In this document: piece by piece, positions 1,724-12,289 of the stretch
Layout of the letters: every line of letters starts with the position of its first letter
Numbering within the stretch: position 1 is the first letter of the stretch
Source: Verrucomicrobiota bacterium
GTDB taxonomy: Bacteria > Verrucomicrobiota > Verrucomicrobiia > Chthoniobacterales > UBA10450
NCBI GenBank assembly: GCA_003217895.1
Contig: QHMS01000259.1
Location: 1 to 32,178, forward strand
Direction of reading: 5' to 3'
DNA length: 32,178 nt
Notes under the pieces: model-generated
The model's database searches: none
What the model was told of the DNA's origin: nothing
The model's input: only the letters and a program-made list of their open reading frames with translations
Translations under genes and position numbers: made by a program

Positions 1724-2746
1724 TCACCATTCGAGTATCGTGCTCGCCCAGGTGAGTCCGCCCCCGAAAACAACCATTAGAACATAGTCGCCGCGCTTGA
1801 TCCGACCGGTGCGATTGGCTTCGTCGAGCGCGATCGCTACGGCCGCAGCGGACGTATTGCCGTAGCGATCCAGATTCACAAACATCTTGTCGCGCGAAAT
1901 GCCGAGCCGATCGGCAATGGCATCAATGATGCGCAGATTTGCTTGGTGCGGAATGAAGCAGGCAATGTCTTCGATTGAAAGCCCGGCTTGATCGAGGGCT
2001 TTTTTCGCTGCGTTAAGCATGGCGATGACGGCTTGTTTGTACACTTCCTTTCCGGTCATGTGGATTGTTGCTAAATGCATGCCCGCATTTTCCCGCGTGA
2101 TAGGGCACCGCGAACCGCCGCCCGGCATGAACAAAATGTCAGTGTACTGGGCGTCGCTGCCGATATGGGTGGCAATTACGCCATGAGCGCTCCCCCGGTG
2201 GCGCAAAATCGCTGCGCCGGCGCCGTCTCCAAAAAGAACGCAGGTGTTGCGATCGGTCCAATTGGTGATCGATGTCAATTTCTCAGCCCCGATCACAAGG
2301 ACGGTGTCGTGCGTGTGTGAGGTAATGAATTGCTGTGCGATTTCCAAGCCAAAGAGAAAGCCTGCACATGCTGCCGCTATATCGAGGCAAGCGGCATTGG
2401 TCGCTCCGATCTTCTTCTGAACGAAGCAGGCCGTGGCTGGGAAAAGCATATCGGGAGTTGCCGTTGCCACGATAATGAGATCGATTTCCTTCGGCGAAAT
2501 CTTGGCTTGCTCCATTGCCTTGAGCGCGGCCTTGGTTGCCATATCGCTGGTGTTTTCATCCTTTGCGGCGATGCGGCGCTCCTTGATGCCGGTGCGCGTA
2601 GTGATCCAGTCGTCGCTGGTATCGACCATGCGCGAGAGGTCCTCATTGGTCAGAACCTTTTCGGGCACATAACTTCCTGTGCCGATGATTGAGACCGTGC
2701 GCAGCGTTTTACTGGAGCGCGGGCTCGAGCGGGGCTGTCGTTTCAT
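1724..2746 (-). CDS. fabH: 3-oxoacyl-ACP synthase III
   Basis: SIIGTGSYVPEKVLTNEDL, DWITTRTGIKERRIA, ACAGFLFGL, PHQANLRIIDAIADRLG, GNTSAAAVAIAL; FabH family with C-H-N residues. Confidence 0.95.
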   Translation of the reverse strand: MKRQPRSSPRSSKTLRTVSIIGTGSYVPEKVLTNEDLSRMVDTSDDWITTRTGIKERRIAAKDENTSDMATKAALKAMEQAKISPKEIDLIIVATATPDMLFPATACFVQKKIGATNAACLDIAAACAGFLFGLEIAQQFITSHTHDTVLVIGAEKLTSITNWTDRNTCVLFGDGAGAAILRHRGSAHGVIATHIGSDAQYTDILFMPGGGSRCPITRENAGMHLATIHMTGKEVYKQAVIAMLNAAKKALDQAGLSIEDIACFIPHQANLRIIDAIADRLGISRDKMFVNLDRYGNTSAAAVAIALDEANRTGRIKRGDYVLMVVFGGGLTWASTILEW

Positions 2747-3740
2747 GATAACGGCGAATCTCCTCGACGATATGCGGGTTCACCTGCTGTTCAATGGACT
2801 CGGCCGCCACTCGTAGCGCATTTTTGATCGCCAACGGCGTGCTCGCACCGTGCGCGATGATGCAAATGCCATTCACACCAAGCAGCGGCATGCCGCCGTA
2901 CTCTTCATAATTCGTTTTGTCTTTGATTACGCGAAATGCCTTCCGCGCCAGATAGGCCGCAACCATGTGAATTTTAGAGCGCGTCAATTCCTGTTTAAGC
3001 CATTTGAAAATCGCCACTGAAATCGATTCGCACGTTTTCAAAATCACGTTGCCGACAAAACCGTCACATACAACCACTTCCACCGGGTCTTCAAACAAAT
3101 GCCGGCCTTCGATGTTGCCCCGAAAATTCAGCGAGCTCTTCTTCAACATTTTGAAGGCCTCTTTTGTCAGGTCGTTGCCTTTGACATCTTCTTCGCCTAA
3201 CGAAATCAAACCGACCCGCGGGTTTTTATAGCGGAGAACGTGGCTGGAATAGACCGAGCCCATGATGGCGTATTGCAAAAGGTGTTCCGGGCGCGCGTCG
3301 ATATTTGCGCCGGCGTCGATCAAAACAAAAACATTAAACTGCGTAGGCAAGACCGCCGCGATGCCGGGCCGGTCGATCCCCTGAAGCGTGCGTAATTTAA
3401 TCATGCTCGCAGCGACGGCCGCGCCTGTGTGCCCGGCGCTCACCACCGCGTCCGCATCACCGCGCTTCACCACATCGACAGCGCGACTGATTGATGAATC
3501 TTTTTTTCGACGAACGGCTGTCCAGGCGCGATCGCTCATCTCGACGACTTGAGTGGAATGCACAATGTCGACGCGCGAATCGTTGCACTGATGTTTGCGC
3601 AACTCGTTTACTATCTCGGCGGAGTCTCCGACGAGATAAAGCTTCTTAATCTGCTGGTACTCGCGCAACGCCATCACGGCGCCAGCAACGAGGTTAGGCG
3701 GGCCAAAGTCACCGCCCATCGCATCGAGGGCGATCTTCAT
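2709..3740 (-). CDS. plsX: Phosphate acyltransferase PlsX
   Basis: MKIALDAMGGDFGPPNLVAGAV, SAGHTGAAVAASMIKLRTLQGIDRPGIAAVLP, LLGVNGICIIAHGAS; adjacent to fabH and rpmF. Confidence 0.95.
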   Translation of the reverse strand: MKIALDAMGGDFGPPNLVAGAVMALREYQQIKKLYLVGDSAEIVNELRKHQCNDSRVDIVHSTQVVEMSDRAWTAVRRKKDSSISRAVDVVKRGDADAVVSAGHTGAAVAASMIKLRTLQGIDRPGIAAVLPTQFNVFVLIDAGANIDARPEHLLQYAIMGSVYSSHVLRYKNPRVGLISLGEEDVKGNDLTKEAFKMLKKSSLNFRGNIEGRHLFEDPVEVVVCDGFVGNVILKTCESISVAIFKWLKQELTRSKIHMVAAYLARKAFRVIKDKTNYEEYGGMPLLGVNGICIIAHGASTPLAIKNALRVAAESIEQQVNPHIVEEIRRYHETTAPLEPALQ

Positions 3741-8357: not shown

Positions 8358-9061
8358 AGAAACTGGCGGTGTTCATCATATTTGTCGCCTGTGTGACTGG
8401 GGCCCGGGTCCAAGGACAGACTGCTGCGGAGTCCCCGGAAGCTTCCCGCGTTGCGCCCCAGAAGAACGCGAAGAAAGCGGCGGCCAAAAAAGAAAATATC
8501 TCGCCTGCCACGAAATTATTTGGCCAGCCTTCTACTGGCTTGCAGTCGAACGCACCGACCGTAACCGACATCTACGCCGATGAAGCCTTCTTTGATTCAA
8601 CAAAGAACACGGGCATCTTCACCGGCCGGGTGAAGGTAACCGATCCGCGTTTCAATCTTCAATGTGACAAACTAACAGTGTTCATTACCAAAGGACAAAA
8701 TCAGGGTTTGGAGAAAGCCGTTGCCGAAGGGAATGTTGGGCTGGTGCGCGAGCGACCTGATCCCAATGGCGGGCAACCAACGCGCGCCGTTGGCCGGGCG
8801 GATAGAGCCACTTATACGGCAGCAACCGGCGATGTTGAATTGAAAGGAACCCCGCGCGTGCAGGAGGGATTAAACATGCACGTGGCGACCAGTCCTGATA
8901 CAGTTATGGTCATTAATCAAAACAGCCAATTGACTACTCACGGACCAAGCCGCACGGAGATTCGTCAACAGCCGAATGAGGAAAAGAAGGCCGGAGCAAC
9001 TCCTTCTCAGAGTCCACCGACGTCGCAGATCTCGCCTGCCCCGTCTTTGCCGAAACCATGA
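8354..9061 (+). CDS. lptA: LptA/OstA-like LPS transport protein
   Basis: ADEAFFDSTKNTGIFTGRVKVTDPRFNLQCDKLTVFITK...AVGRADRATYTAATGDVELKGTPRVQEG; signal peptide; overlaps lptB start. Confidence 0.7.
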   Translation: MKKLAVFIIFVACVTGARVQGQTAAESPEASRVAPQKNAKKAAAKKENISPATKLFGQPSTGLQSNAPTVTDIYADEAFFDSTKNTGIFTGRVKVTDPRFNLQCDKLTVFITKGQNQGLEKAVAEGNVGLVRERPDPNGGQPTRAVGRADRATYTAATGDVELKGTPRVQEGLNMHVATSPDTVMVINQNSQLTTHGPSRTEIRQQPNEEKKAGATPSQSPPTSQISPAPSLPKP

Positions 9062-9843
9062 TTAGCCAGACTGCGCCAGTTTCAGCTGCCAAGATTCATC
9101 CGCCCGTCACAACGAAAGCGGAAACTGTTCTGACCACCGAGGAACTGGTCAAGATTTATGGCGGTCGCGCCGTCGTGGACGGTATGAACATGCATGTTCG
9201 CGCGGGCGAGATCGTCGGACTCCTCGGGCCGAATGGCGCCGGCAAGACCACGAGTTTTTACATGATCGTTGGTTTGGTGAGGCCAAACAGCGGCCGCGTG
9301 ATTTTTTCGAGCACCGATGTCACAGACTACCCCATGTACAAACGGGCCCGGCTCGGGATGGGTTATTTGCCGCAGGAGGAATCGATCTTTCGGAAGATGA
9401 CGGTGGAACAAAATATTCTTGCGATTTTGGAAACACTTCCGCTGAACAAGGCCGAGCGGCGGAACCGTTGCGATCAACTGCTTCACCAGTTTGGGATCGA
9501 GCGGATTGCAAAAAACACAGCACTAACCTTGAGCGGCGGCGAGAAGCGACGCTTAACCATTGCGCGTTCGCTGGTCACACAACCGAAGTTGTTAATGCTG
9601 GACGAGCCGTTCAGCGGTGTCGATCCCATTGCGGTATATGACGTGCAACAGATCATCGTAAACCTGCGCAAGTCGGGGCTCGCCATCATGATCACCGACC
9701 ACAACGTGCGTGAGACCCTCTCAATCGTGGACCGCGCCTATCTGATTTACGATGGCCGGGTAGAGAGCGAAGGCACAAAAGATTTTCTGATCAACGATCC
9801 CATCAGCCGCCAACTGTATCTCGGCGAACGCTTCAAGATGTGA
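9058..9843 (+). CDS. lptB: LPS export ABC transporter ATP-binding protein
   Basis: GLLGPNGAGKTTSFYMIVGLVRP (Walker A), LSGGEKRRLTIARSL, LLMLDEPFSGVDPIAV, MITDHNVRETL. Confidence 0.95.
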   Translation: MISQTAPVSAAKIHPPVTTKAETVLTTEELVKIYGGRAVVDGMNMHVRAGEIVGLLGPNGAGKTTSFYMIVGLVRPNSGRVIFSSTDVTDYPMYKRARLGMGYLPQEESIFRKMTVEQNILAILETLPLNKAERRNRCDQLLHQFGIERIAKNTALTLSGGEKRRLTIARSLVTQPKLLMLDEPFSGVDPIAVYDVQQIIVNLRKSGLAIMITDHNVRETLSIVDRAYLIYDGRVESEGTKDFLINDPISRQLYLGERFKM

Positions 9844-9858: not shown

Positions 9859-9939
9859 GTCATTCCGAACAAAGTCGACGAATCCCGTGGCAGCACCCTC
9901 ATGGTGCAACGGCAAATCTCCACTTCGCTCGACATGACA
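9859..9939. repeat. Class A element GTCATTCCGAAC...CTCGACATGACA
   Basis: Terminal GTCATTCCGA.../...ATGACA inverted ends with internal GCACC-ctcat-GGTGC hairpin. Confidence 0.7.
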
Positions 9940-9960
9940 AAGGGAGTGTTGTAGAGTGTG

Positions 9961-10028
9961 GGTAAGGCAATGGAGTTTGCCTTCCCCCGCCGGTGCGGGA
10001 GAAAACCGCGTGAGCTAATGACTCCTTC
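9961..10028 (+). ncRNA. Fluoride riboswitch (crcB motif) aptamer
   Basis: GGCAA-TGGAGT-TTGCC stem-loop (9966-9981), AACCGC (10004-10009), GCTAATGACTCCTTC (10014-10028). Loop GGAGT (9972-9976) can form the pseudoknot with ACTCC (10021-10025). Matches the crcB consensus from recall; no covariance search run. Confidence 0.9.
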
Positions 10029-10049
10029 CAAGAAAGAAGGAGTTTTTTT
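10021..10049 (+). terminator. Riboswitch expression platform: intrinsic terminator that also contains the SD
   Basis: ACTCCTTC (10021-10028) and GAAGGAGT (10036-10043) form a perfect 8-bp stem with loop CAAGAAA, followed by a T7 run; the antiporter ATG starts at 10050. Confidence 0.9.
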
Positions 10050-11275
10050 ATGCTCGAAAATATCTGGTTGATCGCTGCGGTTTGGATGGGATTAGCGCTC
10101 ATCGGTAGCTTAGTCTCGATTCGGACGGGAATCTCGGTTGCACTGGTTGAAATTCTGGTGGGCATTGTTGCCGGCAATCTTGCCGTCGGTTTGGAGGGCG
10201 GCACGTTGCATATCGGGATTGCTGCTCCGGGCGCTGGCACGGGACATCTGCATCACGTACTGCAATCAACGGAGTGGACCAACTTTCTCGCCCTGCTTGG
10301 CAGTGGCGTGCTCACCTTTCTCGCTGGAGCAGAAATCGATCCAGTTTCGTTGAAGGCCAATTGGCGGGTGAGCGTTCTGATCGGAGTGCTTTCTTTTGCT
10401 GTCCCATTCGGCTTCGTTTGGTTTGTTGCGCAATTCGTTTTTAGCTGGCCTCTGCACCAGGCGCAAATCGCAGGAATCGCGCTTTCGACAACATCGGTCG
10501 CGGTCGTTTACGCCGTCATGATCGAGGGCGGATTCAGCGATACTGCCATGGGCAAAATGATTCTTGCTGCGTGTTTCATTACTGATTTCGGGACGGTGCT
10601 CGCGCTGGGCATGTTGTTTGCGAACTATAATGTCTGGCTCCTGCTGTTTGTGATCGTGACGTTGATCGTCCTCTGGTTCATGCCGCGCTGGACACAAGCG
10701 ATTATCACGCGCCTCGGCGCAACGCAGGTGAGTGAACCCGAGGTCAAATTCATCTTTTTCGTTCTTTTCTTTCTCGGCGGCCTGGCTACAACAGCCAAAA
10801 GCGAGGCGGTGCTGCCAGCGTATCTTCTTGGTCTTGTTCTTGCCGGCGTATTTCTCCGCGACAAAACGCTGGTCCGGCGCATGCGCAGCATCGCCTTTAC
10901 GGTGTTCACGCCTTTTTACTTTATCAAGGCTGGTCTGTACGTCTCGCTGCCGGCGCTGTGGACGGGACTGCTAGTGATCAGCGTGTTTCTAACGTTGAAA
11001 ATCGTGACTAAAATCGCGGGCGTGTTTCCGCTTGCCCGTTTGCATTACATGAGGATCAAGGAAGCGAGCTACACCACGCTGCTCATGGCCACCGGCCTGA
11101 CATTTTAGTTATCCTGAGTGCGTTTGTGCCCACGCTGATCGCCCAGAAGTTCTTCCAACCCACGGTGGAGATGATGCACGCGTGGGGCCGCCTCTACCGC
11201 AAACGTATGCGGGTGTTGAGCGTGGAAGACATGGTAGACAACGGCGAATTGGAAATTGGTCGTTCTTCACGCTAG
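10050..11275 (+). pseudogene. Cation/proton antiporter (CPA/KefB-like) with internal frameshift/deletion
   Basis: Frame 1: MLENIWLIAAVWMGLALIGSLVSI...SYTTLLMATGLTF* stops at 11106-11108. Homologous reading resumes in another frame from 11108: VILSAFVPTLIAQKFFQPTVEMMHAWGRLYRKRMRVLSVEDMV...* to 11275. Confidence 0.75.
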
Positions 11276-11287
11276 AAGTTAATCCTC

Positions 11288-12289
11288 ATGGCGGAACAAC
11301 GCGGGACTCAGACGATTACTTCTACGAGCGATCAGCAGAAAAGCGTTCCGGTTGTCACCGTTGAGGGCTTTTACAATTCTCACGCCGATAAGCTACAGAT
11401 GAAACTGGAAGGCCCGCGGGTGGGATTCCATCGGAAAATTCGCGAGCCGACCATCAACCGCCCCGGCCTGGCTCTTTCGGGTTTCTACACGTATTTCGCC
11501 GAGAAACGGGTGCAGGTATTGGGCGCGGCGGAACATTCTTACCTCAAGAGCTTGTCCTCGACACTGCGCATCCGGCGATTCCGAAAGATGTGCGAGCACA
11601 AGATTCCATGCCTGGTGGTATCACGCGGATTTCATCTTGCGCCGGAGCTGGTGGCTGTGACCGGGGCCGCAAAAATCGCGGTGTTCCGCACCCCAATGAT
11701 CACAATGAAATTCATCAATGCTGCAACGATTGCACTGGAGATGGATTTTTCGCCGACGGTGACCGAATTTGGCAGCATGGTGGACATCTTGGGAGTCGGC
11801 GTTTTGGTTCGCGGGGCGAGCGGCATTGGAAAAAGCGAGTGCGTGCTGGGATTGATCGAACGCGGCTACAGCCTGGTGGCAGACGACGTTACGCGGATCA
11901 CCATGCTCGAAGGACGCGAGCTCATGGCGACGGCCCCCGAGCTCACGCGAAATCATATGGAAGTGCGCGGGATCGGCATTATCGATGTGGCGAAGATTTT
12001 TGGGATAGGCAGCATCCGAGTCGAAAAGCGCCTCGACCTCGTTGTCACACTGAAGGACTGGCAGGATGTAGAAGAAGTGGATCGCATCGGGCTCGACCGC
12101 GAATTTTACGAAATCCTCGGACTCAAAGTTCCGCATGTGACTATTCCCGTCAGGCCCGGCCGGGACATGGCGCGCTTGATCGAGGTCGCGGCCATGGATG
12201 AAAAATTGAAAGGACTGGGTCAAAGCGCCGCCCTTGATTTTAACGCGAAGCTGCTCCGTTTGATGGAGCAGAAAGGAGCAACGACGTAA
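11288..12289 (+). CDS. hprK: HPr kinase/phosphorylase
   Basis: GVGVLVRGASGIGKSECVLGLIERGYSLVADDV (Walker A), MEVRGIGIIDVAKIFGIGSIR signature. Confidence 0.96.
   Translation: MAEQRGTQTITSTSDQQKSVPVVTVEGFYNSHADKLQMKLEGPRVGFHRKIREPTINRPGLALSGFYTYFAEKRVQVLGAAEHSYLKSLSSTLRIRRFRKMCEHKIPCLVVSRGFHLAPELVAVTGAAKIAVFRTPMITMKFINAATIALEMDFSPTVTEFGSMVDILGVGVLVRGASGIGKSECVLGLIERGYSLVADDVTRITMLEGRELMATAPELTRNHMEVRGIGIIDVAKIFGIGSIRVEKRLDLVVTLKDWQDVEEVDRIGLDREFYEILGLKVPHVTIPVRPGRDMARLIEVAAMDEKLKGLGQSAALDFNAKLLRLMEQKGATT

Follow-up and report, generated by a model that had tools for sequence, protein, structure and literature searches.

Riboswitch expression platforms in which a terminator near the open reading frame carries the ribosome-binding site on the 3′ side of its hairpin, with no more than 10 nt between hairpin and start codon, were described as dual expression platforms by Barrick and Breaker in 2007 (PMC2258182). 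For other fluoride riboswitches, it is established that the 3′ strand of the aptamer swaps into the terminator stem (PMC11077080); in a large 2026 survey, the start codon of most terminating fluoride riboswitches lies 28 nt past the termination site, and the fluoride riboswitches of Pseudomonas syringae and Burkholderia pseudomallei served as translational controls (PMC13273304). Antiporters are the next-most common genes linked to these riboswitches after fluoride exporters, an association that has been attributed to pH homeostasis (PMC11139923).

The stretch of DNA analyzed here (the window, 32,178 nt) had been proposed in a preliminary description to carry a crcB-type aptamer directly ahead of a coding region. 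In a check set beforehand, a cmscan search against Rfam 15, this proposal was confirmed by a covariance match to RF01734 that is the only match in the window (E 5.9e-9, model positions 1–64 of 64, above the gathering threshold of 34 bits) and lies in the 5′ UTR, ending just ahead of a PF00999 antiporter gene (Table 1). No other fluoride riboswitch was found in the 2.74-Mb genome assembly, and all coordinates given in that description were correct when checked against the sequence. Both the sequence and the covariance-model alignment place the conserved GCTRATGACTCC and AACCGC in the leader, together with the loop-to-3′-strand pseudoknot GGAGT-ACTCC; the ACTCC-GGAGT pairing had been pointed out earlier and is present, but it is the standard pseudoknot of the aptamer. 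Folding of the entire leader gives −36.5 kcal/mol (z −3.7; none of 200 shuffles equal), and the structure contains both the aptamer stem and the hairpin of ACTCCTTC with GAAGGAGT.

Table 1. Features of the riboswitch locus, with positions in the window
Feature	Position	Strand	Evidence
Possible promoter, weak, TCGACA-17-TAGAGT	9929..9957	+	9 of 12 consensus positions match; chance expectation in region 0.8; just 5′ of aptamer
Fluoride riboswitch aptamer RF01734	9957..10034	+	cmscan 43.2 bits
Aptamer stem-loop GGC..GCC, loop with GGAGT 9972-9976 (5′ pseudoknot strand)	9966..9981	+	Sequence, CM alignment
Extra hairpin inserted 5′ of AACCGC, core CCCGC-CGGT-GCGGG 9986-9999	9984..10001	+	−9.1 kcal/mol fold; comparison
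Terminator/SD-sequestering hairpin (predicted)	10020..10044	+	−11.7 kcal/mol; terminator scan; score d = +23.8; co-variation among relatives
Switch strand ACTCCTTC, partner 9972-9976 (aptamer) or 10036-10043	10021..10028	+	Sequence, folding
Shine-Dalgarno AAGGAG within 3′ arm 10036-10043	10037..10042	+	Sequence; 7-nt spacer to ATG 10050
Seven T, both tail of the predicted terminator and spacer between SD and ATG	10043..10049	+	Sequence; GGAGTTTTTTNATG unique in genome
Controlled gene, CPA2-type cation/proton antiporter (PF00999), shortened by 73-nt deletion and frameshift in assembly	10050..11108	+	Pfam E 3.5e-29; alignment

Sequence and folding agree with the earlier claim that the switch strand ACTCCTTC can alternatively pair with GAAGGAGT, so that the two pairings are mutually exclusive, and the 3′ arm GAAGGAGT is, as was also claimed, at once an arm of the predicted terminator and the only good Shine-Dalgarno (SD) sequence. 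The gap of 7 nt between the predicted intrinsic terminator and the start codon lies within the 10-nt limit of the dual-platform rule. The stem has 9 pairs, 4 of them G-C, and a 7-nt loop; folded alone, the hairpin is equaled by 5 of 200 shuffles, and the hairpins of close relatives are stronger (−14 to −16 kcal/mol). A terminator scan detects the hairpin with all 9 pairs, but since shuffled sequences also give matches (a scan total of 3 against 2.1 expected), the scan is weak by itself and is not used as proof. The U-tailed SD string GGAGTTTTTTNATG occurs once in the 2.74-Mb genome, at this site, and a chance origin of the hairpin is ruled out by this uniqueness, the RF01734 match, and the comparison of the leader fold with shuffles.

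The locus is quite probably a fluoride ON riboswitch with predicted dual control, by termination and by hiding of the SD, ahead of an antiporter gene in a Candidatus Udaeobacter-like soil bacterium. Fluoride binding, termination at the U-run, and how much each layer of control contributes are here inferred from sequence and predicted structure. In the absence of fluoride, the 3′ strand ACTCCTTC would leave the aptamer and pair with GAAGGAGT; the seven U residues that follow the hairpin would cause part of the transcripts to end at the start codon, and transcripts that run on would keep the SD hidden in the same hairpin, with initiation blocked. When fluoride is present, ACTCC would be held by GGAGT in the pseudoknot, the hairpin would not form, and transcription and translation would proceed. 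Termination may be inefficient in the window, because the stem has few G-C pairs and a 7-nt loop and is weaker than the hairpins of close relatives, and the U-run of the window could be only a low-structure spacer. About 30 nt would double as aptamer, terminator, ribosome site, and spacer in a compact ON switch.

The gene under this predicted control is flanked upstream by lptA-like and lptB genes (9058–9843 encodes an ABC ATPase) and downstream by an HPr kinase gene (11288). A profile of its relatives matches the structures of NapA (4bwz, E 4.8e-18) and KefC (8bxg, E 3e-11); a single-sequence search of solved structures with the antiporter gave no match, and an intact relative matches the CPA2 model TIGR00932 with 91 bits, below the cut-off of 238 bits. 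The ion-site motif is I-T/N-D (ITD or IND) in 10 of 10 aligned relatives, as opposed to IDD in NapA, and the second Asp (D179) is invariant. Each of the 36 relatives of the antiporter that were retrieved from public genomes (L059-L094) lies behind RF01734, in some cases with crcB and DUF190 between, and from this comparison they are taken to be a fluoride-linked antiporter subfamily in which T/N-D replaces the D-D of NapA. These 36 relatives extend down to 40% identity, and their records are labeled Verrucomicrobia, Bacillota, and Bacteroidetes, some being MAGs.

It should be noted that the antiporter frame of the window comprises 352 amino acids, as compared with 427 in intact relatives to which it was aligned: 73 nt are gone right after codon 352, and the remainder continues downstream in another frame (window 11040–11290). 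The loss may be either a real deletion or an assembly error, and because the gene is frameshifted in the assembly, this copy is perhaps past selection or the assembly is wrong. It is possible, although somewhat unlikely, that the locus is a decaying relic, in which an intact riboswitch stands before a pseudogene and now does little; such a state would fit the frameshift, and the assembly contains neither a second antiporter copy nor CrcB. Against decay, the leader and codons 1–352 are otherwise undamaged (87–92% protein identity to the nearest relatives), and metagenome assembly can itself lose 73 nt.

The preferred reading, that of a dual switch, is favored by comparison with relatives. The riboswitch is present in 51 of the 83 genomes of the family, and 55 leaders were read from aptamer to start codon, of which 51 (46 distinct) have a usable start. 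In every one of these 51, the predicted fold joins three or four of the CTCC bases in the aptamer strand to the SD region. The hairpin is trailed by a U-run in 35 of them, and this run is missing or broken in the other 16; in leaders without it, the spacers are sequences such as TCATT or ATCATT, and sequestration is kept. Since the SD is covered throughout and the U-run is found in only part of the leaders, sequestration looks like the invariant layer of control and termination like an optional one, which some relatives have and others lack. The stem itself co-varies: at position 6, where the base 3′ of CTCCT faces the one 5′ of AGGAG, 41 leaders have T-A in 16 cases, G-C in 11, A-T in 2, T-G in 1, and no pair in 11, and the total of 30 paired was reached in none of 10,000 permutations, a test that ignores relatedness. 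The 27 leaders that combine an AGGAG-type SD with a terminator predicted 4–8 nt from the start are paired at position 6 without exception. The coverage of the SD in all leaders, together with the U-run and the co-varying stem extension in most of them, supports both halves of the dual-control proposal in the preliminary description.

The same comparison bears on whether the T run is just an unstructured spacer and the hairpin does no more than cover the SD, as in a fluoride riboswitch that acts on translation only. The universal sequestration and the 16 leaders with a missing or broken U-run are in keeping with this, as are the U-less relatives of the same genus, L005 and L100 (GGAGTCATTATG), which control the same gene. 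A run of six or seven T straight after the stem is, however, unique in the genome, the T run is kept in many leaders and ahead of two different genes, and stem pairing continues past the SD in 30 of the 35 leaders that have the U-run, as against 6 of the 16 that lack it, so that action on translation only is distinctly unlikely for the window. The relatives without a U-run do show, as far as their sequences can tell, that translational control alone may suffice, and because the relatives of the window leader as a whole form a natural series differing only in the U-run, termination and translation should be separable within one aptamer. That termination does everything and the position of the SD is incidental is highly improbable, since the SD is covered even in U-less leaders and read-through RNA would still have it within a stem whose energy is about −10 to −12 kcal/mol, although most fluoride riboswitches in the Bacillota sample have terminators well upstream of the start codon.

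With regard to its distribution, 36 of the 55 family hits score positive for a terminator no more than 10 nt from a start codon (other SD forms and relic starts being counted by hand). The fused terminator/start design was found in 2 of 30 sampled Bacillota leaders (L154, L156) and in none of the 45 hits that the phylum sample gives outside the family. These counts indicate that the fused design is typical of the family and is rare but independently present elsewhere. The extra hairpin before AACCGC, which had been noted earlier as an addition to the aptamer, is modest alone and is upheld by comparison, but it is clade-wide: in nearly all members of the family a hairpin separates the first aptamer stem from AACCGC, and the inserted stems differ widely yet pair (TTCCC/GGGAA, TTCTGTCG/CGACAGAA, TTTCTTC/GAAGAAG, CGGTCGCG/CGCGACCA). 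Its presence in nearly all family members and in the Bacillota leader L140 rules it out as a peculiarity of this locus; many other members of the phylum are without it, and by this comparison the aptamer genuinely includes it as an optional element. Some other leaders in the collection are of separate interest. L026 (G067) and L112 (G065) represent a second fluoride riboswitch leader type; the frame behind L026, with a GTG start, encodes a 218-residue DUF6062 protein, and a comparable frame of 218 residues is present in L112. L110 (G073:C5:25302-25392) is a second fluoride riboswitch a few kilobases from the antiporter riboswitch, with no gene recognized behind it, and in L069 a c-di-AMP riboswitch (2633–2794, minus strand) adjoins the fluoride riboswitch in the opposite direction.

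Within the Candidatus Udaeobacter-like genus (35 genomes), CrcB (PF02537) is found in 9 genomes, the antiporter in 20 (19 by search, plus G054, in which the riboswitch and the first antiporter codons lie at a contig end), both in none, and neither in 6. The chance of no overlap, given the margins, is 7e-5 in a calculation that ignores relatedness and incomplete genomes. In the leaders read from this genus, the gene found, crcB or antiporter, is always the gene behind the riboswitch. Other genera of the family (G021, G023, G039, G040, G042) have an operon of riboswitch-crcB-DUF190-antiporter; in the genus, the crcB loci are arranged as riboswitch-crcB-DUF190-hprK and the antiporter loci, including that of the window, as riboswitch-antiporter-hprK, with lptB on the other side. 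In several species of the genus, whichever cassette is present lies at this lptB-hprK site, and in some species it lies elsewhere; the either-or pattern draws on loci L001-L030 and L059-L116. Traces of crcB persist as decayed first codons ahead of the antiporter in G049 (L023), G061 (L095), and G081 (L015), and in genus g14 (L018, L019, L105, L109) the first crcB codons are fused in frame to the antiporter (MLNSIWVSFGS..FQNIWFVAA). In an lptB tree, crcB and antiporter states alternate with at least five changes, three of them forced by well-supported branches, as where G073 (antiporter) stands beside G064 (crcB) with support of 98/95; because lptB is a single gene adjoining the locus, local recombination may have inflated this count.

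The pattern of replacement suggests that riboswitch-linked antiporters can suffice where CrcB is absent. The idea that antiporter genomes have a hidden partner in the form of a CLC-type fluoride exporter was considered and rejected: the only CLC of the window genome has the GREGP motif of chloride-type CLCs, its long C-terminal domains resemble CBS domains, and a CLC above the cut-off was found in just 3 of the 20 antiporter-type genomes of the genus. It is a speculative and rather unlikely extension that the CPA2 antiporter is a stand-in for CrcB, as a proton-coupled fluoride exporter or as a protein sufficient alone for tolerance, and that the genus has repeatedly swapped the two under one switch, whose hairpin, fused to the start codon, would work for either gene. 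The genomic context here outweighs the RNA device in interest, one switch being placed before either the exporter CrcB or an antiporter usually read as an aid to pH control; because the genus never has both behind the switch, protection against fluoride by the antiporter alone, or replacement of CrcB by it, becomes testable.

It is well supported that the riboswitch of the window, with its predicted dual transcription/translation platform, is a genuine fluoride riboswitch of a known design. The novelty of the dual design implied in the preliminary description does not hold, since platforms with the ribosome-binding site in the terminator were given a class name in 2007 (PMC2258182); the Bacillota leaders L154 and L156 likewise rule out the design as new. 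The window resembles the platforms of Barrick and Breaker in having the ribosome-binding site in the 3′ arm and a hairpin-to-start distance of 6–7 nt, but their survey covered other riboswitch classes, mostly OFF switches, whereas the window has the fluoride class with ON logic (PMC2258182). With RF01734 representatives such as that of Bacillus cereus crcB, it shares the aptamer core, the pseudoknot strand doubling in the terminator stem, and the ON logic (PMC11077080, PMC2864571); in the window the 3′ arm of the predicted terminator is also the SD and the U-run also the spacer to ATG, and it has the extra hairpin before AACCGC. As in other fluoride riboswitch-linked Na+/H+ antiporters, the PF00999 gene lies directly behind the riboswitch, but the genus here has the antiporter instead of CrcB rather than in addition to it. 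Control of translation, as predicted for the window, is also the mode of the riboswitches of P. syringae and B. pseudomallei, which act without termination, whereas the window adds a predicted terminator.
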